The notes under the pieces: generated by a model
What the model was told of the DNA's origin: nothing
Database searches by the model: none
What the model saw: only the letters and a program-made list of their open reading frames with translations
Program-made: the position numbers and the translations under genes
Assembly (NCBI RefSeq): GCF_001007875.1
Contig: NZ_CP011412.1
Span: 3,534,001-3,598,000 of the forward strand
DNA from: Sedimenticola thiotaurini
Lineage (GTDB): Bacteria; Pseudomonadota; Gammaproteobacteria; Chromatiales; Chromatiaceae
DNA length: 64,000 nt
Direction of reading: 5' to 3'
Shown: positions 32,128 to 47,822 of the stretch, piece after piece
Layout of the letters: every line of letters starts with the position of its first letter
Numbering within the stretch: the stretch's first letter is position 1

Positions 32128-35100
32128 ATGAATAATAAAAAGCGTAAGTCCGGCCTGCCTTTCAGCAAGTTGGCCTGTCTGGTCATGTTGTGGTTGTCCT
32201 GCAGTCAGGCGCTGGCCGCACTGGATGTCTCCATGAGCACCGAAGTGGGTTACCCCAACCCCATTGTGCCGGGGGAGGTGACGGCCCTGCGCATTACCCT
32301 GCAAAACAGCAATGACACGGCCCCGATTACCGGCGTCACGTTTACCAACAACATGCCGGCCGAGATCACGGTGGCCGGTGGCGGTGCTGTCTCCTACAGC
32401 TGTCAGGATGGGGACGGGAACAATGTCCCGACCAACGGCACGGTAACGGCCACCATCGGCACCAGTACGATTGAACTGGGCGGTGGGGGGGGCACCATCC
32501 CCCAAGCCGGTGTGAGCAGCGGTCGCTGTGACATTGTGGTGGAGGTCACTTCCACCGTTGCCAATGCGGTACATGTGAATGAAATCCCGGTGGCAGCCGT
32601 TACCGGTGACGATGGTCAGCCACAGTCCAATGCCACGAAGGCGGAGCAGTCGATTACCGTCACTTCTCTGAACAATCCTTCTATCAGCAAAAGTTTCAGC
32701 AAAAACAGTATTGTGGTGAATGATGAGACCGTGCGCCTCACCCTCACCATCGACAACCGGTCCAATAATAATCACGACCTGCCTCTGAATACGGCGGGGG
32801 ATACCCCCGCTTTCGGCCTGCGGGATACGCTGCCGGCCGGGCTTGAGGTGGCGCCCACTCCCAATGTTGCTATCAGTTGTACCAGCGGTAATACGACTGC
32901 CAGTTTCGCTCCCGTGGCCGGTGACACGGAGCTGAGAGTGGTTGGCGGGGCGATTCCGGCGGATGCCGCCTGTAGTTTTTCTGTTGACCTGGTGGGTACC
33001 TCCACCGGCGGTGATTACAGTCAGAGTCTGGACAATACGATAGACAGGGTTAACGACTTCGCCAACAAGCGAGGCCTGGTGCCGGCATCCAACGCCACGG
33101 ATTCCCTGGCCGTGCATGGTGCTCTCCAGGTGAGCAAGGCGTTCAGTCCGACCACTGTACGACAATCTGAGCAGGCTACGCTGACCATCACCCTGCACAA
33201 TGACAGCCCGCTTACCCCGCTTACCGGGGTTCAGTTGACTGAAAACAATATCCGCACATCCGGCAGTGGCACAGGTACACTGACGATCGACAACATCAAT
33301 TTGAATGGTTGTGGTGGTGCCGACGTGGCACTGATCAATGGCGACCAGGGTTTTGCATTAGGTGGCGTAACCCCTGCTACCATTGCGGCAAGTGACAGCT
33401 GTGTTCTGACCATCACCTACACCCCGGCCCTGGGTACGGCGGGTGTCCCCGAAACTTTCACCGATACCATTCCTGAAGGCGCGGTGGTCAATGATCAGGC
33501 CGCCATCAGCCAGCCAGCCAGTCACAGTGTTACCGTGCTGGATGAGTTGTCGGTCAGCAAGTCCCGCTCACCGAGCCAGGTGGCACCCGGTAACCCGGTG
33601 CGTTACGACATTACGGTAAGGAATTTTTCCGGCGGTGCGCTCAACGATGTACGGGTGAGTGATAACCTGCCTGGTGGCATGTTGGCGCTGGATACCCCCG
33701 CCCCCAGCATGAACGGCGCTGGCTGTTCCGGTGTCTTGAGCCACAATATCGCCGGTCCGGCACCCTCCACCACCAATCCCCAATTGACCTTTGATATGAA
33801 TGCCGGGGTGGGTGCATCCCCGTCCGTCTGTACCGTCACCTTCTGGGCTATGGTGCCGGTGGGTGCGGCGGTGGGCGTCACCTTTGATAACCAGATTGCT
33901 GCCAATGGGGTTTGTAATGACAACGGCACCGGAGGTATCTGTAATGCCGGCGCCTCCTCCACCACTAATATCAGGGTAACCGCCCGGGACGTGGTGAGCG
34001 TAACCAAGAACTTCAGCCCCAACAACGCCTCGGAAGGACAGGTTTCGGAGCTGACGGTTATCTTCACCAATGCCTCGGCCGAACCTTTGACCAATGTGGA
34101 ATTTACCGACAATCTGCCCATAGGCTCTACCGGCCTGCAGCTGCAGGTGGCTGATCCGGCCGTTGCCTCCAGTGACTGCGTCGGAGCGGTGGTCACCGCC
34201 AATCCGGGGGATGCCGTTATCACCATGACCGGGGGTACCATCCCGGCACGGGGCAACAGTGGCCTGGGTTCTTTCGGCAGCTGCGAACTGAAGGTCAACG
34301 TGATTGGCGCGGCCGGCAACTACACCAATGTGTTGCCCGCGGGCGCGGTGGAGGCCACCCATACGCTGGCAGATGCCGGCACCGAAACGGTCTCCAGCCC
34401 TGGGCCGGTTCAGGCAACTCTCAACTATGCTTCCGCTCTGGGCGCCACTAAACGATTCTCGCCGGATACGATTCAGCAGGGTGGCAGCTCTACCGTGGCC
34501 ATACGTCTGAGCAACAGCGGTGATGGCACCTTGAACAGTGTCTCGGTTACCGATCCGCTGCCAGCCGGGATGGTGCTGGCCGATCCGCCAAACGCCTACA
34601 CCACCTGTGATGGCGCTAGCAGCAGCATCACGGCGGTTGCGGGACAGAGCAGTGCCAGCCTGACCGGGGCTGTGATTCCCGCCAATGGCCAGTGTGAGTT
34701 CCTGTTCGACGTGACCACCAATGCTCCGGGTGACTGGGTCAACACCATCCCTGCCGGCAATATCACCGCCGCGGGAGGTGTGCAGACCACAGCACCGGTA
34801 ACCGCCACGTTGGCAGAGTCGTCCAACTATGCGATCACCATCACCAACAATGCTTTGCCCAACGCCCTGACCGCGCCCGGTGAGAGCAGTGTGTTGACAA
34901 TCACTCTGACAAATAACGGTACCGAGAATTTGAGTGGCATTGCACTGACCGACTATTTCACTGACGACGGCAAATCCACTGGCTCCTCCACCGGTATGTT
35001 GGTGGCAGCCACGCCAAGTGTATCCACCACCTGTAGCGGGGGCGTGGTCGAGGCACTTGCCGGTGGTGATCGTATTTCGCTCAGCGGTGCCAATCTGGAT

Positions 35101-38100
35101 GCCGGGGATAGTTGTACGGTGTCCGTGAATGTCACCATGGAACAGGTGGGTACGGTTCAGGACGTTATTCCGGCGGGCGTGGTCCAGACGGATCAAGGTG
35201 TATCAAACACCCTTCAATCTGTAACCAGTCTCTCGGCGCAAGCCAATATCGGTGTTACCAAGCAGTTTATTCCCGAGGTGGTGAAACCGGGTGAGCGTGC
35301 CCGTCTGCGCATCAGCTTTATCAATCCTTTAACACTGCCGTTGGCCGACCTGGCAGTGCTGGACAGCCTGCCGGCAGGGGTGACCGTGCCGGCCGGTCCG
35401 AACCTGGTGACAGACTGTAGTGGCGCCACGGTGACAACACCGGGCAGCAACAGCGTGCAGGTGAGCGGCGGCAATTTGCCGGCGGCGTCGGGCGGTGTGG
35501 CCAGTAGTTGTATGGTGGAACTCGACGTGGTTGCTGCCGTGGCGGGAAGCTATACCAATGTGATCCCGGCCCATGCCATGACCGGCACGGTAGGTGGCGC
35601 CTCGGTGGATAACACCTCTCCGGCAGAGGCCGATCTGTGGGTCACGGATCCGGTCTCCCTGTCCAAGAGCTTTGCGCCTGCGTCGGTGCCACCGGGCCAA
35701 CCCTCAACCCTGACCATTACTCTTACCAATCCGGGTGATACCCCGTTAACTGGTGCTGCGCTGACAGATAACCTGCCGGCCAACCTGGTGGTGGCGTTGA
35801 CCCCCAATGCCTCCACCACCTGTGCCGGGGGCACGGTCACTGCACCCGCCTCGGCTACGGCCATAAGCCTGGCCGGCGCAACAATACCGGCCAACGGTTC
35901 CTGCCAGGTGCAGGTGGATACCCTGAGTAACATTCCAGGCAGTTATGCCAACACGATTCCTTCCCGGAGTCTCACTACCACCGAGGGTGTCACTAACGAG
36001 GAGCCGGCAAACGATACCCTTGAAGTCTCCATGCCGCCGGTGGTCAGCAAGCAGTTCAGTCCACCGGTCATTCCGGCCGGGGGTACCTCGACGTTGACCA
36101 TTGTCCTGACCAATGACAATGGGGTGGACATGACCACAACGGCGCACTTTACCGACGAGTTGCCGACAGCGCCCGGCGCGGTGGTAGTGGCAAACCCCGC
36201 CAATGCCTCCACCAACTGTACCGGCACCCTGGTGGCCAACTCCGGTGCAACCAGCGTACGTCTCAATAGCGGCGCCACTATTCCTGCTGGCGGTTGCAGC
36301 ATCAGCGTGGATGTAACCGGCAATACCGCCGGCACCCATATCAACCATATCCCGGCGGCTGCATTGCAGACCGACCTGGGTAACAACCTTCAGCCGGCCA
36401 ATGCCAACCTGGAGATCAGTGCACTGGGTTATATCTCGGGCCGGGTATTCCAGGACAACGATGTGGTGCCCAATGGCACCTACGACGGTGGCACCGATAC
36501 GCCACTGGCCGGTGTTACCGTGAACCTGCGTGATGCGAGTGACAATATTATTGCCACTACTGTCACCGATGCATTGGGTAACTACCAGTTCACCGGACTG
36601 GCAGCCGGCACCTACTCGGTGGAACAGCCAAACCAGCCGGCCGGTACGGTCAACGGCATCACCACGCCGGGTGCTATCACGGGTGGTGGCGGCGGAAACC
36701 CCGGTACCGCCACCCCGACTGCCACCACGCCGAGCCGGATCAACGGCATCGTCTTGGGTGACGATGGCGGGCAGATCGACGGTTCGTCCCACAACAACTT
36801 TGCCGAGCAGGTCAACTCCTCGATCAGCGGCCGGGTGTTCCTGGATCAGAACAACAACGGCCAGTTCAACGGAGCGGACAGTGGGCTGGCCAATGTGACC
36901 ATCGAACTGCTGGACGGGGGCGGCAACCTGCTTGCCACCACCCAGACCGATGCGGATGGCAACTACAGCTTCAGTGACCTGGAGCCCGGTACCTACTCGA
37001 TCAGGCAGCCGAGTCAACCCGCCGATACCTCCAACGGTATTACCACGCCGGGAACGGTGGGCAATGGCGGTACCGATGGTGTGGCCACTCTGCCCACCGT
37101 GACGCCGAGTCTGATCAGCAACCTGGTTCTGCCGCCCAACACGGTGGCCAGCGGTAACAACTTTGCCGAGTTGCCCAACAGCCGTCGTATCTCCGGCAGC
37201 GTGTTCCTGGATTTTGACAACAGCGGTACGGTGAATGGTGCAGACCATGGTATCGGTGGTGAGACCATCAACCTGACCGGTACCGATACCAATGGCAATC
37301 CGGTCTCCATGACCACTACCACGGACAGTGACGGTAACTTTGAATTTACCGGTCTGCCGGAAGGTACCTACCAGCTGGATCAGCCGACCCAGCCGGCCAG
37401 CACCGGTAACGGTACCACCACCGCCGGCAGTGCGGGGGGCGTGGCCTCCAACCCGACTGCAACCAGCAGCCGGGTGTCGGGTATCGACCTGACCGGCGCC
37501 AATACGGTATCGGGCGGCAATACCTTTGCCGAGCAACCGGACGCGGCGGTGGATCTGGCCCTGTCCAAGACCCACTCGCCGGCCAGCCTGGCTGAGGGTT
37601 CGAGCACCGGTTTCTACCGGCTAACGCCCAGTAATATCGGCAGTGTGGATACCAGTGGAACCATCACCGTGGTGGATACCCTGCCGGCAGGCATCTCCAT
37701 TGTCTCCATGCCCAGCAGTGGTGACTGGAGCTGCAGTGCCGCCGGACAGGTGATTACCTGTACATCGGATGCGGTGATTCCCGCTGCCGGTGTCGGCAAC
37801 GAGATAGTGCTTAGAGTGGCGGTGGCCAATGGACTTTCCGGTCAACTGCTGGTGAACAGCGCAACCATCTCCGGTGGATCGGAACCGCCCGGCTTTGAGG
37901 GCAATAACCGGGCTGACGACCCGACACCCATTGCCGAGGCAGCGGAGGTGTCCGGCCATGTCTGGTTTGACGACAACCACGACCGGGCCATGGATCCGGG
38001 TGAATCGCTGGTGCCGAACTGGCAGGTGGACCTGGTCCTGGGTGGTGTCACGGTGGCCAGCACCACCACCGATAGCAGCGGTGCCTACAGCTTTACCGGT

Positions 38101-39777
38101 ATTTCACCGGGCAGTGGCTACCAGATACGCTTCCGTGAGCCGGACAGCGGTACCCTGTACGGGCGTCCTGTGCCCAATGAAACGGGCGACCCGTTCACCA
38201 ACGGGGTGGTCGATGCAAGCAACCCGGCCGGGGCGGACAACAGTGACGGTACGCTGGACGGCCTGACCCTGGCCTCGGGAGACCGGGTGACGGGCCAGAG
38301 TCTGCCGCTGGATCCCAGTGGTGTGGTCTACGACTCGATCACCCGTGCCCCGGTAGCCGGTGCGGTAGTAACGCTGGTCGGCCCAGGCGGCTTCAACCCG
38401 GCTACCCATCTGGTTGGCGGCGCTGCCAATGTCAGCCAGACCACCGGTGCCAACGGCTACTACCAGTATCTGTTGAACGCCGGTGCGCCGGCCGGTACCT
38501 ACACCATCACGGTGACCTCTCCGCCCACTTACCTGCCGGGTGAGTCGGCCATCCTGCCGGCCTGTAACAATACGTTGAGCGTGGGTGCGGTGCCCGATCC
38601 GGCCCTGGTGCAGACCAGTATTCAGCCGCCGGTGGTTGGCGCGCCGGTGCATGATCCGCTGACCTGCCCGGTTAACTCGGCGGGACTGGCGGCTACGGCC
38701 GACAGCACCCAGTACTTCTTCAGCTTTGATCTGAATCCAGGGGTGTCGGCGGACCTGGTAAACAACCACATACCCCTGGATCCGATCACAAACGGCGCCT
38801 TCACGGTACAGAAGAGCACGCCCATGACCAACGTGTCCCGGGGTGATCTGGTTCCCTACACCGTGACCGTGACCAACAACCTGGCCGGAGCGGTACCCAA
38901 TATCGATATCCGGGATCAGATTCCACCCGGCTTCAAGTACAAGACCGGTTCCGCATCGGTCGACGGGGTGAAGCAGGAACCGCTGGTGACCGGGCGTCTG
39001 CTGACCTGGCCGAACTTCAGTTTTGCCCTGGGCCAGCAGCGGGTGTTCAAGGTGATGCTGGTGGTCGGTGCCGGTGTCAGTGAGGGCGACTATGTCAACC
39101 AGGCGTGGGCCGAGAACAACCTGGTCGGTGCGCGGGTATCCAACCTGGCGACCGCCACGGTGCGGGTGGTACCGGACCCCACCTTTGACTGTTCCGACCT
39201 GATCGGCAAGGTGTTCGATGATCAGAACGCCAACGGTTACCAGGATCAGGGTGAGCCGGGCATCGCCAATGTACGGGTGGCGACCGCCCGGGGCCTGCTG
39301 ATCACCACGGATGACCACGGTCGTTTCCACGTCACCTGTGCCGCCATACCCAATGAGTGGCGGGGTGGTAATTTCATCCTCAAGCTGGATGAACGCAGTC
39401 TGCCATCCGGTTACCGGGTGACCACGGAAAACCCGCGGGTGGTGCGGCTGACCCGGGGCAAGATCAGCAAGGCGAACTTCGGTGCCACCATTCACCGGGT
39501 GGTACGTCTCGACCTGACCAGCGATGCCTTTATGCCAGGCAACGAGCAGTTGCTGGAACAGTGGAACAGCCAACTGGATCACCTGGTTGAACTGCTGCAT
39601 GAACAGCCTTCGGTACTGCGTCTCTCCTATCAACAAACGGTCGATGATCCGCCAGATCTGGTACAGGCGCGAATCGATGCGGTGCAACAACAGATCACCG
39701 AGCGTTGGGAGGAGGATAACTGCTGTTATCCGTTAACGATCGAAGTGGAACGGATGAGCAGGGAGGCAGGACAATGA
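32128..39777 (+). CDS. Giant secreted DUF11/SdrD-B repeat surface protein
   Basis: 2549 residues from ATG 32128, with GGGAG upstream. A signal peptide (core LACLVMLWLSCSQALA) opens the protein. Residues about 32-1430 hold roughly ten DUF11-like beta-sandwich repeats, each starting like VSKSFSPASVPPGQPSTLTI and holding one Cys pair. Residues about 1433-1805 hold three SdrD/Cna-B-type domains (ISGRVFLDQNNNGQFNGAD). Another DUF11 domain, a further Cna-B/carboxypeptidase-regulatory stretch (about 1939-2220), a last DUF11 domain (from about 2224) and a Cna-B-like domain (from 2359) follow. Residues 2459-2549 form a distinct end domain with LRLSYQQTVDD. I infer a long surface stalk. It overlaps the barrel gene by ATGA. 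Confidence 0.88.
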   Translation: MNNKKRKSGLPFSKLACLVMLWLSCSQALAALDVSMSTEVGYPNPIVPGEVTALRITLQNSNDTAPITGVTFTNNMPAEITVAGGGAVSYSCQDGDGNNVPTNGTVTATIGTSTIELGGGGGTIPQAGVSSGRCDIVVEVTSTVANAVHVNEIPVAAVTGDDGQPQSNATKAEQSITVTSLNNPSISKSFSKNSIVVNDETVRLTLTIDNRSNNNHDLPLNTAGDTPAFGLRDTLPAGLEVAPTPNVAISCTSGNTTASFAPVAGDTELRVVGGAIPADAACSFSVDLVGTSTGGDYSQSLDNTIDRVNDFANKRGLVPASNATDSLAVHGALQVSKAFSPTTVRQSEQATLTITLHNDSPLTPLTGVQLTENNIRTSGSGTGTLTIDNINLNGCGGADVALINGDQGFALGGVTPATIAASDSCVLTITYTPALGTAGVPETFTDTIPEGAVVNDQAAISQPASHSVTVLDELSVSKSRSPSQVAPGNPVRYDITVRNFSGGALNDVRVSDNLPGGMLALDTPAPSMNGAGCSGVLSHNIAGPAPSTTNPQLTFDMNAGVGASPSVCTVTFWAMVPVGAAVGVTFDNQIAANGVCNDNGTGGICNAGASSTTNIRVTARDVVSVTKNFSPNNASEGQVSELTVIFTNASAEPLTNVEFTDNLPIGSTGLQLQVADPAVASSDCVGAVVTANPGDAVITMTGGTIPARGNSGLGSFGSCELKVNVIGAAGNYTNVLPAGAVEATHTLADAGTETVSSPGPVQATLNYASALGATKRFSPDTIQQGGSSTVAIRLSNSGDGTLNSVSVTDPLPAGMVLADPPNAYTTCDGASSSITAVAGQSSASLTGAVIPANGQCEFLFDVTTNAPGDWVNTIPAGNITAAGGVQTTAPVTATLAESSNYAITITNNALPNALTAPGESSVLTITLTNNGTENLSGIALTDYFTDDGKSTGSSTGMLVAATPSVSTTCSGGVVEALAGGDRISLSGANLDAGDSCTVSVNVTMEQVGTVQDVIPAGVVQTDQGVSNTLQSVTSLSAQANIGVTKQFIPEVVKPGERARLRISFINPLTLPLADLAVLDSLPAGVTVPAGPNLVTDCSGATVTTPGSNSVQVSGGNLPAASGGVASSCMVELDVVAAVAGSYTNVIPAHAMTGTVGGASVDNTSPAEADLWVTDPVSLSKSFAPASVPPGQPSTLTITLTNPGDTPLTGAALTDNLPANLVVALTPNASTTCAGGTVTAPASATAISLAGATIPANGSCQVQVDTLSNIPGSYANTIPSRSLTTTEGVTNEEPANDTLEVSMPPVVSKQFSPPVIPAGGTSTLTIVLTNDNGVDMTTTAHFTDELPTAPGAVVVANPANASTNCTGTLVANSGATSVRLNSGATIPAGGCSISVDVTGNTAGTHINHIPAAALQTDLGNNLQPANANLEISALGYISGRVFQDNDVVPNGTYDGGTDTPLAGVTVNLRDASDNIIATTVTDALGNYQFTGLAAGTYSVEQPNQPAGTVNGITTPGAITGGGGGNPGTATPTATTPSRINGIVLGDDGGQIDGSSHNNFAEQVNSSISGRVFLDQNNNGQFNGADSGLANVTIELLDGGGNLLATTQTDADGNYSFSDLEPGTYSIRQPSQPADTSNGITTPGTVGNGGTDGVATLPTVTPSLISNLVLPPNTVASGNNFAELPNSRRISGSVFLDFDNSGTVNGADHGIGGETINLTGTDTNGNPVSMTTTTDSDGNFEFTGLPEGTYQLDQPTQPASTGNGTTTAGSAGGVASNPTATSSRVSGIDLTGANTVSGGNTFAEQPDAAVDLALSKTHSPASLAEGSSTGFYRLTPSNIGSVDTSGTITVVDTLPAGISIVSMPSSGDWSCSAAGQVITCTSDAVIPAAGVGNEIVLRVAVANGLSGQLLVNSATISGGSEPPGFEGNNRADDPTPIAEAAEVSGHVWFDDNHDRAMDPGESLVPNWQVDLVLGGVTVASTTTDSSGAYSFTGISPGSGYQIRFREPDSGTLYGRPVPNETGDPFTNGVVDASNPAGADNSDGTLDGLTLASGDRVTGQSLPLDPSGVVYDSITRAPVAGAVVTLVGPGGFNPATHLVGGAANVSQTTGANGYYQYLLNAGAPAGTYTITVTSPPTYLPGESAILPACNNTLSVGAVPDPALVQTSIQPPVVGAPVHDPLTCPVNSAGLAATADSTQYFFSFDLNPGVSADLVNNHIPLDPITNGAFTVQKSTPMTNVSRGDLVPYTVTVTNNLAGAVPNIDIRDQIPPGFKYKTGSASVDGVKQEPLVTGRLLTWPNFSFALGQQRVFKVMLVVGAGVSEGDYVNQAWAENNLVGARVSNLATATVRVVPDPTFDCSDLIGKVFDDQNANGYQDQGEPGIANVRVATARGLLITTDDHGRFHVTCAAIPNEWRGGNFILKLDERSLPSGYRVTTENPRVVRLTRGKISKANFGATIHRVVRLDLTSDAFMPGNEQLLEQWNSQLDHLVELLHEQPSVLRLSYQQTVDDPPDLVQARIDAVQQQITERWEEDNCCYPLTIEVERMSREAGQ

Positions 39778-42700
39778 AAAAGTTGATACTTGCGTACTCT
39801 ATCGGTATGGCGTTGAGCGGTATGGCGGTTGCCGACCAGTCGTCCTGTGATCCTGAGCAGGCGCACTGCAAGCTGCCCGAGCAGCGCGGCAAGATGATCG
39901 ACAACAGTCAGGTCTGGCCGGGGTCAGTGGTACCGCGCAATACGGAGAACCAGCAGCAGCCGCAGGATGGGGCGGCAGGTAACTGTCCCGTCGGCGCCGC
40001 TGCACCGGCCTTGCCCTTCCGCATCAGCGTAGATGGTGCACCACTGCTGGCCGATGATCCTGCCCAGGTGGCGGATAGCCTGCGCTGCCAGGATGTGACC
40101 CTGGCCCGGGCCGATATCCAGGTCCGTTATGACAGTCAGGAGCAGACCCCCTGGCTGAATGTGGGGGTCGATCCGGTCACTGCAGGTCCCGATCGCCAGG
40201 TGCAGTTTTATACCTACAGCAACTATCCGGCCTGGATCGAGCGGGCAGAGATCCGGCTGTTTGATGCGGCCCGCTCGGTACGCCAGGAACCACTGCAGAC
40301 CCTGGATGTGCAGATCGGCAAGGGGGTGGCCTGGGTGCTGCCGGCACAGCTTGAGGGGCCCCTGAGCTATGTGTTGCGGGTCTATGACCGGGCCGGACGG
40401 TTTGATGAAACCGAGCCCCGGCAGCTGCAGATCAGCAGCATGAAGCTGGCCCCCAGCGAGAGTTCCGGTGAACTGGCCGTGTATGGGGAGAACCGCCGCA
40501 AGCTGGCCAATATCCCGGTGCGGGGTGGTGCGGTGACCGTCAACGGTCGGGATGTCCAGCCGGATACCCAGGTTTCAGTCATGGGCCAACCGGTGCCGGT
40601 GGATGGATCGGGTAAATTCGCCTATCGGCAGATACTGCCGGCGGGACCGCACACCGTCCAGATCCGGCTGGAGGACACCCAGGGACAGCGTTACGAGTTC
40701 CAGCGTAATGTCACCATTGCCAAAGATAACTGGTTCTATATCGGCCTGGCGGACCTGACGGTGGGACGCAACAATACCAAGGGACCGGCCGCCCTGGTGA
40801 CAGCCGACGACTCGGATCATTTTGATAACGAGCTCTATGTGGATGGTCGCCTGGCCTTCTACCTGAAGGGCAAGATCAAGGGCGAGTACCTGCTCACTGC
40901 ATCAGCCGATACCCGGGAGCAGCCCCTGGATGAGCTGTTCAGTAACTTTGCCGCCAAGGATCCGAGCTCCCTGCTGCGCCGCCTCGATCCGGATCAGTAC
41001 TACCCGGTCTACGGCGATGACAGCACCACCCTGGATGATGCGCCGACCCAGGGCAAATTCTACGTACGCCTGGAGCGGGGGGACTCCCATGTGATGTGGG
41101 GTAACTTCCACACCCGCATCAACGACACCGAGCTGGTGCAATACAATCGGGGACTGTACGGCGCCCGGGCCCACTGGGTGGCTCAGGAACAGACCCGCTA
41201 TGGTGAGCGCCGGGGACGGGTGGAGCTGTTTGCTGCAGACCCCGGCACCCTGCCGGCCCGGGACGAGTTCCGTGGTACCGGTGGCTCACTCTACTATCTG
41301 CGTCGGCAGGATCTGACCCAGGGCTCCGAGCGGGTCTGGATCGAGGTGCGGGACAAGGATACCGGCATCGTGCTGGAGACCCGTTACCTCACCCCCGAGG
41401 AGGACTACGATATCAACTATATCCAGGGTCGCATCATCCTGCGCGAGTCGTTGGGATCCACGGCCGACGGCTCCCTGTTGATCAAGAGCGGCAGCCTCTC
41501 GGGCCACCCGGCCTACCTGGTCACCAGCTACGAGTACACGCCGGGACTGACCGAGGCGGATGACCTGGTACGGGGTGGCCGCGGTGAATACTGGATCAAT
41601 GACCAGGTGAAGATCGGTGCCACCGGTTATCGCCAGGATGCCCCGGGCATGGAGCAGAAACTGAGTGGGGCCGATGTCACCCTGCGCTACAAACCGGGTA
41701 CTTACGTGAAGATCGAGGGTGCCCGCAGCGAAGGGGTGGGCACCAGCCAGAACAACTCGTTGGATGGCGGTTTCAGTTTCCAGAACCGTACCAGTCCGGG
41801 CGGCCGGGCCGATGCCGGCCGTATCGAGGCGGCCGTGGATCTGGCCGAAGTGACCGACGACCAGCAGGGTCGGGCCAGTGTCTATTGGCAGAAACGGGAA
41901 GCCGGCTTTTCGGCCCCCGGCCAGCTGACCGGATCGGCTGACGCCACCCAGCGGGGCGCCCGGTTGTCTCTGCAACTGGATCCCCGGAGCCGGCTGGATG
42001 CCCAGTTGGATGCACTGGCGGATGAGATTGCCGACACCCACGCGGCGGAGGTGAATCTGCGCAGGCAGGTGAACGACAACTGGGAGATTGCGGTGGGTGT
42101 GCGCTCCGACAGTCGTGATCTCAACACCGTGACCGCCAGTGATGTGTTGAACGAGGAGGGCGATCGCACCGACATCCAGGTTCGGGCGGACTACACCCCG
42201 GACGAGGATGGAGAAAACGACTGGAGCGCCTACGGCTATGTCCAGGGCACGGTGGACAAGAGCGGCAACCGCAGCAGCAATGACCGGATCGGCGTGGGCG
42301 GCAAGCGACGTCTGTCGGAACGCTTCAGTGTCTATGGTGAAGCCTCCACCGGTGATGGCGGCCTGGGCGGACTGGTCGGAGGTGATTTTCAGTACAACGA
42401 TCAGACCAGTCTCTACTCCCACTACCAGATGGATACCGATCGGACTGACATCGGTTACCGGGGTCGTCAGGGGCAGCTCACCAGCGGTGTGAACAGCCGC
42501 TTCAGCGATTCGGTGTCGGTGTTTGGCGAGCAGCGCGTCTACCATGGTGACGGACCGAGCGGCCTGACCCACGCCTTTGGTCTCGAACTGACCCCCAATG
42601 AACGCTGGAGCTACGGGATCAATTTCGAGACCGGTGAGCTGTCCGATCCCTATGCCGGCGACATGGATCGGGATGCCGTCAGCCTGGATGTGGGCTATCG

Positions 42701-43403
42701 GCAGGAGAGAACCCGTTACGCCGGCCAGCTGGAGTATCGACGCGAGGAGGGGACCGCCGGCAAGCGCACCAGCTGGTTGTGGCGTAATAACCTGGGTTAC
42801 CAGATCGATCCCGACTGGCGTTTCCTGGGACGTCTGAACCTTGCCTTCTCTGACTCCAGCAGCGGCGACTACTATGACGGAGACTATGTGGAGGTGGTGA
42901 CCGGTTACGCCTACCGGCCGGTGGACAATGATCGGCTCAACCTGCTGTTCAAATACAACTACCTGTATAACCTGCCGTCTCCCGGACAGCTGGATGGCAG
43001 TGGCGTTCTGGCGGACTACTCGCAGCGCTCCCACGTGCTGTCGGTGGATGGCACCTATGACCTGAAGCCCTGGGTGTCGGTGGGCGGCAAGTACGCCTAC
43101 CGGCTGGGTGAGATGCGGGACAACCGGGTCGGTGGTGAGTGGTACGACAGCGAGGCCCAGCTGGCCATTGTTCGGGCCGACTTCCACTGGGTGCATGAGT
43201 GGGACCTCCTGGTGGAAGGTCGGGTGCTGGATGTGGCAGCGGCAGAGGATCGGCGCTCGGGGGCGCTGGTGGCGCTCTACCGTCACCTGGGCAAGAACGT
43301 GAAGGCCGGTATCGGTTACAACTTCACCGACTTCTCGGATGATCTGACCGATCTCTCCTATACCAGCAAGGGGTGGTTCTTCAATATCGTGATGAAGATG
43401 TAA
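39774..43403 (+). CDS. Outer-membrane beta-barrel partner of the giant surface protein
   Basis: 1209 residues with a signal peptide (MKKLILAYSIGMALSGMAVA). Residues about 20-330 are periplasmic or surface beta domains with paired cysteines near the N-terminus (SSCDPEQAHC, NCPVG, LRCQD). From about 335 (WFYIGLADLTVG) to the end, alternating hydrophobic strands with Tyr/Trp/Arg look like a large barrel; the segment DPDQYYPVYGDDSTT is a striking conserved-looking turn. It ends WFFNIVMKM, an aromatic beta-signal-like end though not a terminal Phe. No plug domain or TonB box is seen. Translationally coupled to the giant protein, so it probably anchors or exports it. Confidence 0.8.
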   Translation: MKKLILAYSIGMALSGMAVADQSSCDPEQAHCKLPEQRGKMIDNSQVWPGSVVPRNTENQQQPQDGAAGNCPVGAAAPALPFRISVDGAPLLADDPAQVADSLRCQDVTLARADIQVRYDSQEQTPWLNVGVDPVTAGPDRQVQFYTYSNYPAWIERAEIRLFDAARSVRQEPLQTLDVQIGKGVAWVLPAQLEGPLSYVLRVYDRAGRFDETEPRQLQISSMKLAPSESSGELAVYGENRRKLANIPVRGGAVTVNGRDVQPDTQVSVMGQPVPVDGSGKFAYRQILPAGPHTVQIRLEDTQGQRYEFQRNVTIAKDNWFYIGLADLTVGRNNTKGPAALVTADDSDHFDNELYVDGRLAFYLKGKIKGEYLLTASADTREQPLDELFSNFAAKDPSSLLRRLDPDQYYPVYGDDSTTLDDAPTQGKFYVRLERGDSHVMWGNFHTRINDTELVQYNRGLYGARAHWVAQEQTRYGERRGRVELFAADPGTLPARDEFRGTGGSLYYLRRQDLTQGSERVWIEVRDKDTGIVLETRYLTPEEDYDINYIQGRIILRESLGSTADGSLLIKSGSLSGHPAYLVTSYEYTPGLTEADDLVRGGRGEYWINDQVKIGATGYRQDAPGMEQKLSGADVTLRYKPGTYVKIEGARSEGVGTSQNNSLDGGFSFQNRTSPGGRADAGRIEAAVDLAEVTDDQQGRASVYWQKREAGFSAPGQLTGSADATQRGARLSLQLDPRSRLDAQLDALADEIADTHAAEVNLRRQVNDNWEIAVGVRSDSRDLNTVTASDVLNEEGDRTDIQVRADYTPDEDGENDWSAYGYVQGTVDKSGNRSSNDRIGVGGKRRLSERFSVYGEASTGDGGLGGLVGGDFQYNDQTSLYSHYQMDTDRTDIGYRGRQGQLTSGVNSRFSDSVSVFGEQRVYHGDGPSGLTHAFGLELTPNERWSYGINFETGELSDPYAGDMDRDAVSLDVGYRQERTRYAGQLEYRREEGTAGKRTSWLWRNNLGYQIDPDWRFLGRLNLAFSDSSSGDYYDGDYVEVVTGYAYRPVDNDRLNLLFKYNYLYNLPSPGQLDGSGVLADYSQRSHVLSVDGTYDLKPWVSVGGKYAYRLGEMRDNRVGGEWYDSEAQLAIVRADFHWVHEWDLLVEGRVLDVAAAEDRRSGALVALYRHLGKNVKAGIGYNFTDFSDDLTDLSYTSKGWFFNIVMKM

Positions 43404-43436
43404 CCGGCCTGGCGACAGGTCACGCTCCGACAGGTG

Positions 43437-43473
43437 GGCCGACGCCGGATAATCCCGCTATCCGGTGTCGGCC
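43437..43473 (+). terminator. Strong hairpin after the surface-protein pair
   Basis: A 15-base stem (43437-43451 with 43459-43473, one G-T pair) around a 7-base loop ATCCCGC, 34 bases after the stop. Very stable, with no T-run, but the best candidate for ending this operon. Confidence 0.6.
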
Positions 43474-43578
43474 ACACCGACCCTTTCCATCCAACCGGTT
43501 AAGCCGGCTGCAACGGCCGGCGGTTCCCGGTACCCACCCATACCAAGATATATTTGTCGATAGTAACCCATAAGAAGA

Positions 43579-44866: not shown

Positions 44867-45475
44867 ATGGCCCTTCATGTCAAACATCTCCCGGCCGAGG
44901 AGCGCCGTGCCATCACTGTGGAGACGGTGGTGGAACTGGCGGCGGAGCAGAACCCGAGCGATATCACCACGGCCGCCATTGCCAAGCGCATGGGGTTGAC
45001 CCAGGGGGCGCTGTTTCGCCACTTTCGCAGCAAGGATGCCATTCTCAGCGCGGTGATGGAGTGGGTGTCGGAACGCCTGATGGCCCGGGTGGATAAGGCG
45101 GTGCAGTCTGTCGACTCCCCCATAGCGGCGCTGGAGGCGATGTTTCTGGCGCATGTGGAATTTGTGGTGGAGCACCCGGGTGTGCCCCGCATGCTGTTCG
45201 GCGAGTTGCAGCGTTCTGGCGACACCGTCCCCAAGCGGATAGTGCAGACCCTGATCAGCCGCTACGGGGAGCGGATTCGCAAACTGATAGAGTCGGGTAA
45301 AGGGGTCGGAGAGATCGATTCCGGGCTGGAGACCGAGGCGGCGGCGAGTCTGTTTATCGGCACCATACAGGGCCTGGTGATGCAGTCCCTGCTGGCGGGT
45401 GATGTGCGGTTGATGCGCCGGGAGGCTCCCCGGGTGTTCGCCATCTACCGGCGCGGTATCGGGAGCAAACAATGA
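44867..45475 (+). CDS. TetR-family regulator of the adjacent ABC exporter
   Basis: 202 residues. The helix-turn-helix is at about 30-60 (ITTAAIAKRMGLTQGALFRHF), the TetR hallmark, followed by an all-helical ligand domain. Start ATG at 44867 with CGGAGAG upstream; its stop overlaps the adaptor gene by ATGA. It is thus the first gene of a four-gene operon, and the palindrome over its promoter is the likely operator. The ligand is unknown, presumably a substrate of the exporter. Confidence 0.9.
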   Translation: MALHVKHLPAEERRAITVETVVELAAEQNPSDITTAAIAKRMGLTQGALFRHFRSKDAILSAVMEWVSERLMARVDKAVQSVDSPIAALEAMFLAHVEFVVEHPGVPRMLFGELQRSGDTVPKRIVQTLISRYGERIRKLIESGKGVGEIDSGLETEAAASLFIGTIQGLVMQSLLAGDVRLMRREAPRVFAIYRRGIGSKQ

Positions 45476-46623
45476 AACGGTTTCCCATTCAGGGACGCAC
45501 CCTGGCCCTGCTGGCGGTGCTGGTTCCGCTCAGCGCACTGTTTTTCTACGTGGCACTCCGATCTGGTCCGCTGGCCCCCGTGCCGGTGACCGTGACCGCG
45601 GTACAAAACCTGGAGGTCTCCCCGGCCCTGTTCGGTATCGGTACGGTTGAAGCCCGTTACAACTACAAGATCGGTCCCACCGTGGCCGGGCGTCTCAAGT
45701 ACCTGAATGTCGAGGTGGGTGACCGGGTGCAGGCGGGACAACTGCTGGGCGAGATGGAGCCGGTGGATATGGAGGCACGCCTGAACGCCCAGGATGCAGC
45801 GCTGAAGCGTGCCCAGGCGGAGTTGTCCGAGGCGAAGGAGCGTCAGCTCTACGCCCGGTCCCAGGCGATCCGTTACGAGAAGCTGCTGGCGGCCCATACG
45901 GTGAGTGAAGAGCTGGTGGCCACCAAGCGCCATGAGCGGCTGCTGGCCGAGGCGGCCCTGAGTGGCGCCAGGGAGGAGCTGGTGCGTCTCACCGCAGAGC
46001 TGGAGGCGCTGCGCGCCCAGCGGGACAATCTGCAACTGATTGCCCCGGCCGACGGGTTGGTGGCGGTACGTGCAGCAGATCCCGGCACCACTGTGGTTGC
46101 CGGTCAGACGGTGGTGGAACTGATCGACACCCAGAGCCTGTGGGTGAACGTGCGCTTTGACCAGACCAACGCCTACGGCCTGGCGGCCGGTCTGCCGGCG
46201 GAGATCGTGCTGCGCTCCCAGGCCGGACAGGGCTATGCGGCAGAGGTGCTGCGGGTCGAACCGATGGCGGATGAGGTGACCGAAGAGACCCTGGCCAAGG
46301 TCACTTTCCTGCAGCCGCCGGTGGTGTTGCCGCCCCTGGGGGAGTTGGCAGAAGTGACCGTAACGCTGCCCGAGCTGCCGGCCGCACCGGTGATACCGAA
46401 CGCGGCAATCCAGCGCGTTGACGGGCGCCTGGGGGTATGGCGACTGGTCGAAGATCAGCTGCGTTTCACCCCGGTCGAACTGGGGGCGGCCGGGCTGGAT
46501 GGCCAGGTCCAGGTGCGGGACGGACTCAGCGCCGGGGACCGGATCGTGGTCTACAGTGGCAAGGCGCTGAGTAGTAAGAGCCGCATCTACCCGGTGGATC
46601 GACTGCCGGAGATCAAGTCGTGA
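45472..46623 (+). CDS. HlyD-family adaptor of a DevBCA-type exporter
   Basis: 383 residues. N-terminal membrane anchor (LALLAVLVPLSALFFYVAL), first lipoyl half (VAGRLKYLNVEVGDRVQAGQ), coiled-coil hairpin (about 100-185), second half (LIAPADGLVAVRAADPG), then beta-barrel. It connects the inner-membrane ABC pump to an outer-membrane channel. It overlaps tetR and the permease gene (ATGA-type overlaps on both sides). Confidence 0.88.
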   Translation: MKRFPIQGRTLALLAVLVPLSALFFYVALRSGPLAPVPVTVTAVQNLEVSPALFGIGTVEARYNYKIGPTVAGRLKYLNVEVGDRVQAGQLLGEMEPVDMEARLNAQDAALKRAQAELSEAKERQLYARSQAIRYEKLLAAHTVSEELVATKRHERLLAEAALSGAREELVRLTAELEALRAQRDNLQLIAPADGLVAVRAADPGTTVVAGQTVVELIDTQSLWVNVRFDQTNAYGLAAGLPAEIVLRSQAGQGYAAEVLRVEPMADEVTEETLAKVTFLQPPVVLPPLGELAEVTVTLPELPAAPVIPNAAIQRVDGRLGVWRLVEDQLRFTPVELGAAGLDGQVQVRDGLSAGDRIVVYSGKALSSKSRIYPVDRLPEIKS

Positions 46624-47822
46624 TCAGCCTGGCAGGGCGCGATATTCAGCACGCCTGGGGCAAGTTTGTCTTCACCGGTTTCGGCCTGGGCCTGCTGATC
46701 GGCGTCACCCTCACCATGGCGGGTGTGTATCGCGGCATGGTGGATGACGCCAGGGTGCTGCTGGACAACAGCGGCGCGGATCTGTGGGTGGTACAGCAGG
46801 ACACCCTGGGCCCATACGCCGAATCCTCCAGCATCTATGACGATCTCTGGCGCGGTATCCGGGGCATGCCCGGGGTGGCCCGGGCAGCTAACATCACCTA
46901 CCTGACCATGCAGGTGCGCCAGGGGGAGCGGGATGTTCGGGCGATGGTGACCGGGGTGATGGCCGGTGAACCGGGTCTGCCCGGCTGGCCGCCCCGTCTG
47001 GTGGCGGGCCGGCAGATTACCCGGGGCCACTACGAAGCGGTGGCCGACCTGGCCAGCGGCTTCCAGTTGGGTGACCAGATCCAGATCCGGCGCAACAGCT
47101 ACCGGGTGGTTGGGCTGACCCGGCGCATGGTCTCCTCCAGTGGCGATCCGATGGTGTTCATTCCGCTGCGGGATGCTCAGGAGGCGCAGTTTCTCAAGGA
47201 TAACGATGCGATCCGGCAACAGCGCCGGCGCACGGCGGATAATCCCGCCTTCAATCGACCCGAAGTCCCCGGCTTGCTGGATGCGGTGATCGCGTCCCAG
47301 AGCAGCAACACCTATGTCAACGCGGTACTGGTGCAACTGGAGCCGGGTTGGGACGGGCAGATCGTGGCGGAGTCGATCCGTCGCTGGAAGCGGCTCACGG
47401 TCTATACCCGCAGCCAGATGGAGGCGATCCTGGTCGGCAAGCTGATTGCCACCTCGGCCAAACAGATCGGCATGTTCCTGGTGATTCTGGCCGTTGTCAG
47501 TGCCGCCATCGTGGCGTTCATCATCTACACCCTGACCCTGGGCAAGATTCGCGAGATCGCGGTGCTGAAACTGATCGGCACCCGCAACCGCACCATTGCC
47601 GCATTGATCATGCAGCAGGCGGTCGCCCTCGGGGTGATGGGCTTTGCGGTGGGCAAAATCGCCGCCACCTTCTGGGCACCGGTGTTTCCCAAGTATGTGC
47701 TGCTGCAACCGTTCGATTCGGTGATCGGTTTTATCGCCGTACTGGTGATCTGTGTACTGGCGAGCCTGATCGCGATCCGGGCCGCCCTGAAAGTGGACCC
47801 GGCAGAGGCGATTGGAGGCTGA
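46620..47822 (+). CDS. FtsX/MacB-like ABC permease (DevC type)
   Basis: 400 residues. One N-terminal helix (about 15-37), a periplasmic domain to about 270, then three C-terminal helices with FtsX-type sequence (IIYTLTLGKIREIAVLKLIG and MQQAVALGVMGFAVG). This four-helix plan is that of MacB/DevC/LolC mechanotransmission-type permeases, which push periplasmic substrates rather than carry them through the inner membrane. It lies between adaptor and ATPase genes. Confidence 0.88.
   Translation: MISLAGRDIQHAWGKFVFTGFGLGLLIGVTLTMAGVYRGMVDDARVLLDNSGADLWVVQQDTLGPYAESSSIYDDLWRGIRGMPGVARAANITYLTMQVRQGERDVRAMVTGVMAGEPGLPGWPPRLVAGRQITRGHYEAVADLASGFQLGDQIQIRRNSYRVVGLTRRMVSSSGDPMVFIPLRDAQEAQFLKDNDAIRQQRRRTADNPAFNRPEVPGLLDAVIASQSSNTYVNAVLVQLEPGWDGQIVAESIRRWKRLTVYTRSQMEAILVGKLIATSAKQIGMFLVILAVVSAAIVAFIIYTLTLGKIREIAVLKLIGTRNRTIAALIMQQAVALGVMGFAVGKIAATFWAPVFPKYVLLQPFDSVIGFIAVLVICVLASLIAIRAALKVDPAEAIGG

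Follow-up and report, generated by a model that had tools for sequence, protein, structure and literature searches.

The stretch of Sedimenticola thiotaurini DNA analysed here (64,000 nucleotides; NCBI RefSeq contig NZ_CP011412.1, positions 3,534,001 to 3,598,000; hereafter the window) carries two overlapping genes, one for a long repeat protein, which we call the stalk, and one for a predicted outer-membrane barrel protein. An earlier note, made from the letters of the sequence, had proposed that the two belong to an undescribed surface system in which a 2549-residue stalk is coupled to a 1209-residue barrel protein. Both frames are open as described there, and the genes share four bases, ATGA (Table 1). 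Two genes of this type very probably form one functional unit, and they represent a real, widespread stalk–barrel system to which the libraries used give no family name.

Table 1. Features of the stalk and barrel genes, in window coordinates
Feature	Position	Strand	Basis or remark
Stalk gene, 2549 residues	32128..39777	+	open frame; TGA end overlaps barrel start
Stalk signal peptide, about 30 residues	32128..32217	+	by eye
Ten tandem DUF7933/DUF11-type repeats, residues 32–1431	32221..36420	+	Pfam, cysteine pairs
SdrD_B/CnaB-like domains, residues about 1432–1790	36421..37500	+	Pfam; match SdrD and UafA chains
Stalk end domain, residues 2441–2549 (start approximate)	39448..39774	+	predicted beta-alpha-beta-alpha-beta, perhaps OmpA-like
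Barrel gene, 1209 residues	39774..43403	+	open frame
Unconserved low-confidence N-terminal tail of mature barrel protein	39837..40064	+	structure model
N-terminal beta domains of barrel protein	40065..40718	+	second weakly Glucodextran_B-like, below cut-off
Predicted transmembrane barrel, about 40 strands, mature residues 295–1188	40719..43400	+	AlphaFold
Conserved insert after about five strands, mature residues 470–556, candidate plug	41244..41504	+	model, conservation
Strong hairpin 3' of barrel gene, without T run	43433..43478	+

The stalk and barrel proteins

The stalk begins with a signal-peptide-like sequence, which is followed by the ten repeats, the SdrD_B-like domains, more DUF11-type domains and a distinct C-terminal region; Pfam places 11 DUF7933, 7 DUF11 and 5 SdrD_B stretches in it. 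The earlier reading of about ten DUF11-like repeats with cysteine pairs is borne out: each of the ten N-terminal repeats has such a pair and the fourth has two, the stalk having 32 cysteines in all, two of them within the signal peptide. A triad of Lys, Asp and Asn of the isopeptide type is kept in at least six of the ten repeats (R4, R5, R6, R8, R9 and R10, by eye), and residues at comparable places form isopeptide bonds in DUF11 and DUF7933 domains (PMC12617251). The end domain is predicted to fold as beta-alpha-beta-alpha-beta, with a predicted local distance difference test (pLDDT) mostly near or above 90.

The barrel protein also starts with a signal-peptide-like stretch (by eye), and no Pfam family matches it above the cut-off. 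Its AlphaFold model (pLDDT 76.9, predicted template modelling score 0.70) predicts both the N-terminal beta domains and the outer-membrane barrel that had been proposed from the sequence. From mature residue 295 on, the model has 41 strands of at least eight residues by DSSP, two of them doubtful as membrane strands. All 50 structural matches listed for the barrel are outer-membrane barrels, porins, AlgE, a TonB receptor and FimD among them; a profile of the barrel gave no sequence match to PDB chains at E up to 1.

Pairing, fusion and co-inheritance in relatives

A scan of genome contigs with the barrel alignment A1 found at least 577 stretches encoding relatives. The pairing count covers near relatives, namely the window and the best-scoring 80 of these stretches. 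The end domain lies directly upstream of the barrel in 77 of these 81 loci, and in the remaining four the fetched contig starts no more than about 1 kb from the barrel. A four-base overlap between the stalk stop and an ATG, GTG or TTG in the barrel frame is present at 50 of the 77 junctions read. The stalk frames were taken from a simple longest-frame caller, not a gene finder; 27 stalks longer than 1000 residues and complete in the fetched DNA span 1197–2952 residues, shorter ones having been dropped and longer ones running off the loci.

Single loci among the relatives deserve mention in their own right. Two Microbulbifer genomes (L096/L097 and L098/L099) hold the pair twice, with about 16 kb between the copies. 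One genome with a complete pair has elsewhere a second stalk copy with the end domain (L151 10005–14000, on contig C47 of G322). Relatives at L137 and L150 come from metagenome-assembled genomes (MAGs) labelled Elusimicrobia and Parcubacteria, possibly by binning errors.

Two wider samples were searched; as they overlap and include relatives, hypergeometric values computed from them are not true probabilities. In an even sample of the class the barrel was matched in 53 of 369 genomes and the end domain in 19, all of which are barrel-positive; of the 20 genomes with the top barrel matches only G235, whose barrel sits on a 3.5-kb contig, is without the end domain. The phylum sample has 57 barrel-positive genomes out of 398 and 17 with the end domain; 16 of these are barrel-positive too, and the other (G598) is a weak partial match. 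All 13 listed barrel genomes above 600 bits carry the end domain.

Pairing with this end domain is a trait of the near relatives. We also read 16 distant barrel loci without an end-domain match (L055–L070). Six of them (L055, L056, L059, L060, L061 and L070) encode barrel and stalk-like sequence in one frame, so that both are fused in one chain, and three (L058, L068 and L069) have the latter in the upstream gene; at L057 the upstream gene encodes 3783 residues and has no stalk match. Judged by these frames, a stalk of some kind is likely in the distant barrel loci, a match to one being seen in some of them. Fusion is also seen at L048: stalk, end domain, three OmpA domains and barrel share a single frame, which is open at the contig edge; in L048 and L059 alike the order is stalk, OmpA, barrel. 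A giant fused version is at L056: from L154 719 to L056 15995 (contig C2 of G134, about 428,719–463,995) an open frame of 11,758 residues with 134 cysteines ends in a barrel relative. A part of 5330 residues of this frame matches the stalk at 2.5e-41.

The barrel proteins of relatives have no OmpA domain, one or three ahead of the barrel, and two in L082 and in the edge-truncated L129; the counts were scored with a model built from six domains and may be too low for loci at contig edges. Among first OmpA domains, compared in 38 relatives, GH(T/S)D keeps its aspartate almost without exception and LSxxRA its arginine in every case; these residues bind peptidoglycan in OmpA. The barrel protein of the window has no OmpA domain. 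In a tree made with a quick method and supported by the Shimodaira–Hasegawa-like approximate likelihood ratio test only, the five-row clade with the window barrel lacks OmpA domains and its sister rows have one, which suggests a loss in the window's clade, though some outer rows also have none.

The earlier note had asked whether the C-terminal domain co-varies with the barrel, and it does. Distances between end regions follow those between barrels with a Mantel r of 0.82 over 77 pairs, as high a value being reached in none of 999 permutations, although shared descent explains part of this correlation. A comparison across phyla separates co-inheritance from shared descent. Seven loci labelled Thermodesulfobacteriota hold two barrel subtypes, with one or three OmpA domains, and in all seven the end region is nearer by mean identity to proteobacterial stalks of the same subtype than to the other subtype of its own group, as compared with nine and six hand-picked proteobacterial loci and with MAG labels that can err. 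Three of the four alphaproteobacterial-labelled loci of the window's subtype likewise follow their subtype; the fourth, L076, departs from it (0.504 against 0.508), the other subtype being represented by one comparison locus.

Could the two genes be chance neighbours, or plainly inherited as an operon with separate functions? Shared descent inflates both the co-occurrence and the distance correlations, and many distant barrels are without a detectable end domain. Such findings weigh against reading stalk and barrel as one unit: there is no end-domain match in 34 of the 53 barrel genomes of the class sample and in 41 of the 57 of the phylum sample, mostly weaker relatives. No stalk match was found in six of the 16 distant loci (L062–L067), whose barrel frames have 1420–3540 residues, most with long N-terminal parts; a stalk search of the whole 11,758-residue frame at L056 gave no match either; and the barrel is absent from the 10 kb read downstream of the stalk copy at L151, in whose genome one barrel may serve two stalks. 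A barrel occurring widely without a stalk had been named beforehand as evidence against a coupled system. This is not found in near relatives, where all loci but four at contig edges are paired, but the distant loci answer it only in part. Separate functions are nevertheless very improbable in view of the fused frames, the matching of subtypes across phyla and the presence of the barrel in all 19 and in 16 of 17 genomes with the end domain.

Barrel relatives are also carried by plasmids, with matches in 25 of 72,556 plasmid records, four of which were read. On a conjugative Sinorhizobium meliloti plasmid the upstream gene, annotated as a DUF11 domain-containing protein, shares four bases with the barrel gene. 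The gene order is the same on a Sulfitobacter plasmid and on an Eleftheria replicon, and the upstream genes of all three contain the end domain. The Sulfitobacter stalk gene has 18,588 bases. On the fourth, a Vibrio campbellii replicon of 2 Mb, the DUF11 protein has 3771 residues and no detected end domain; the barrel follows, and two OmpA domains in series are encoded by a separate gene directly after the barrel gene (L157 13965–18395). Seven of the 20 listed plasmid records (H2–H4, H8, H9, H12 and H14) call the barrel relative a TonB-dependent receptor, and H5 names it an outer membrane protein transport protein. We set the identity as a TonB receptor aside, since it rests on the database label. 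Barrel relatives are common, occur on rhizobial and marine-bacterial replicons and are recorded under unrelated names. In 22 genomes of the same genus or family as the window's, some of them incomplete, no barrel match was found. Horizontal acquisition of the operon by this genome is plausible and unproved, but operon and remaining window have similar G+C (61.2% and 61.7%).

When 692 flanking genes were clustered, no third gene kept a fixed position across relatives, seven loci being left out where the gene caller had not kept the barrel. The largest flanking family comprises 19 scattered loci, and smaller families keep their place only in small related groups. Three same-strand families of six loci each follow the pair (L141 13595–16044 and L140 15991–19320, with relatives in L124, L146 and L150); among the members scanned, the first is without a Pfam match and the two larger ones have TPR repeats. 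In the window itself, the strong hairpin said to close the unit is real, 43404–43520, which contains it, folding better than its shuffles (z −5.0), but a terminator scan found no T-run terminator there on the + strand. An exporter cluster of a TetR regulator, an HlyD-family protein and a MacB-type permease lies in series near the pair (44867–47819). That no secretion genes adjoin the pair, as had been stated, holds with the qualification that the HlyD-family and MacB-type genes (45472–47819) begin about 2 kb downstream of the barrel gene, beyond LysR and TetR genes. Searches of the own genome for ShlB and for SprA_N gave no match, and none of 14 control genomes matched either, so that absence is not shown by them.

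A possible route to the cell surface

How would such a stalk reach its place? Export, anchoring and a surface role are inferred here. Sec would bring both proteins to the periplasm, as their signal-peptide-like N-termini suggest, and the barrel protein is predicted to fold into the outer membrane as a giant barrel. The stalk would then thread through the barrel N-terminus first, and its C-terminal end region would be held back on the periplasmic side, where it would act as a stopper and fasten the fibre to the barrel. The OmpA domains that many relatives show in their sequence, with residues of the peptidoglycan-binding type, would link the complex to the cell wall. A wide barrel would be fitting for a chain whose domains are cross-linked by disulphides and probably by isopeptide bonds. 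As to function, the fibre is probably an adhesin or a matrix fibre.

In the fused chains the order of stalk, OmpA and barrel leaves few topologies, and it fits a stalk outside, OmpA domains in the periplasm and a barrel in the membrane, as in an autotransporter. With the N-terminus of the barrel periplasmic, OmpA bound to the wall and the stalk too long for the periplasm, if this is so, the stalk would have to leave through the membrane, most simply through the adjacent barrel. The split form keeps the fused order with a gene boundary in it. The N-terminus of the stalk would go out first, with the end region as a stopper below.

By our count the stalk contains roughly 17–20 immunoglobulin (Ig)-like domains, and set against the dimensions of the periplasm a stalk of this kind should outreach it. 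That the stalk instead stays periplasmic, with the barrel as a transporter or envelope spacer, we consider unlikely. The OmpA domains do precede the barrel, on the presumed periplasmic side, and the receptor name in the plasmid records would suit a transporter, but the lengths of the 27 complete stalks and of the Sulfitobacter gene seem excessive for the periplasm, and the repeats of the window stalk match domains of surface adhesins and pilins.

Another possibility is that the barrel only anchors the stalk, some other route carrying it over the outer membrane before the end region docks to the barrel, as with SprB and SprF. There a giant adhesin is co-expressed with a barrel that binds its C-terminal region, and export is by the type 9 secretion system (T9SS; PMC9143113). 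The OmpA domains of relatives are consistent with anchoring. This alternative is less probable, though to be taken seriously, and it is opposed by the finding that no gene family keeps its place next to the pair outside small related groups, by the barrel being part of the same chain in some relatives and by a predicted barrel that far exceeds the 14 strands of the SprF type.

Our best explanation as a whole is a split fibre system resembling an autotransporter, with export through the barrel; it stands about evenly between acceptance and doubt. Further points count against it. The strand number was read from DSSP and not from coordinates, and closure and pore width of the barrel are not established thereby. 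Disulphides and isopeptide bonds would impede export unless the pore is wide or the bonds form outside, and no energy source for export was identified. The Pfam matches listed for the stalk include no known adhesive domain. The end domain of the window may be a degenerate OmpA domain, for which the evidence is weak. In hhalign it matched a first OmpA set with a probability of 76–78 over 39 columns, the reversed controls giving 0.5–1.4, but a second and a third set only with 11.6 and 11.7. PF00691 is matched by one of 45 end-domain members (E 0.058), so that by Pfam it is not an OmpA domain; its top PDB profile matches are designed proteins (E 0.13–0.19), and PomB and Omp38 match its profile at E 0.56–0.58, none of which is significant. 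In a structural search with a model of the stalk C-terminus, the matches listed cover its Ig-like domains alone and not the end domain.

The claim to a new export route is credible but unproved. In its boldest form it would be a new class of outer-membrane export, in which a self-gated single-chain barrel of about 40 strands passes a chain of cross-linked Ig-like domains to the cell surface and retains it by a degenerate OmpA-type stopper, in split and fused forms across Proteobacteria; we put this forward tentatively, as a possibility on the doubtful side.

Comparison with known systems

Two-partner secretion of the FhaB/FhaC type (type 5b) combines a large exoprotein with a partner barrel. 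The earlier note had set the pair apart from it, and by the features tested this distinction stands: no POTRA domain was found in the barrel protein by a Pfam scan (E up to 1) or in 34 barrel-region sequences (E up to 0.05), its predicted N-terminal domains being mainly beta, and no two-partner secretion domain appears in the stalk among 25 of 26 families listed, its N-terminus starting with DUF7933-type repeats. In the window, moreover, the conserved partner-linked region sits at the C-terminus. We reject this assignment. Classical autotransporters (type 5a) have a passenger and a C-terminal 12-strand barrel in a single chain, whereas the window has two genes, fused only in some relatives, and a predicted barrel that is much larger. 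Type 11 secretion (Slam) was also considered and set aside: the barrel has no DUF560 match, and the paper on this system that matched 'DUF11' mostly concerns DUF1194.

Three published systems resemble the pair in part. SprB and SprF of Flavobacterium gliding share with it the co-expression of a giant repetitive surface protein and an outer-membrane barrel, which there binds the C-terminal region of that protein, but PorP-like proteins such as SprF are 14-strand FadL-type barrels and export is by T9SS (PMC9143113); among the Pfam matches listed, the stalk has no T9SS C-terminal sorting domain. SprA, the T9SS translocon, is likewise a very large single-chain barrel, of 36 strands, that exports surface proteins (PMC10994853). 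If the strand count of the window barrel holds, it would be larger still. Kinship with SprA was not adopted, the barrel profile having no PDB chain match; SprA is not among the 50 structural matches listed, which does not count against it. TraA and TraB of Myxococcus are a surface protein and an envelope protein with an OmpA domain, in an operon with a four-base overlap, but TraA has PA14 and MYXO-CTERM, and TraB has about 400 residues plus the OmpA domain (PMC3325183).

Also close are the fibrillar adhesins known as CLIPPER; DUF11 stalks with OmpA-like anchors have been published from Proteobacteria (PMC10952558, PMC12617251). The window protein shares their secreted, tandem DUF11-type stalk, its signal peptide being judged by eye, and differs in having no known adhesive domain among the Pfam matches listed. 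The earlier description of the system as undescribed holds for one part of it but not for the other: stalks of this kind were known, and neither the barrel nor the pairing was found in the literature searched. A term search did not find 'barrel' in the main texts of PMC12617251 and PMC10952558, nor 'secretion', 'autotransporter' or 'outer membrane' in that of PMC12617251, a survey which names an OmpA-like anchoring domain for DUF11-type adhesins. Compared with what these sources describe, the partner barrel, its pairing with the stalk and the fused forms are additional here, and the stalk–barrel pair is a candidate for the route by which Gram-negative bacteria display such adhesins.

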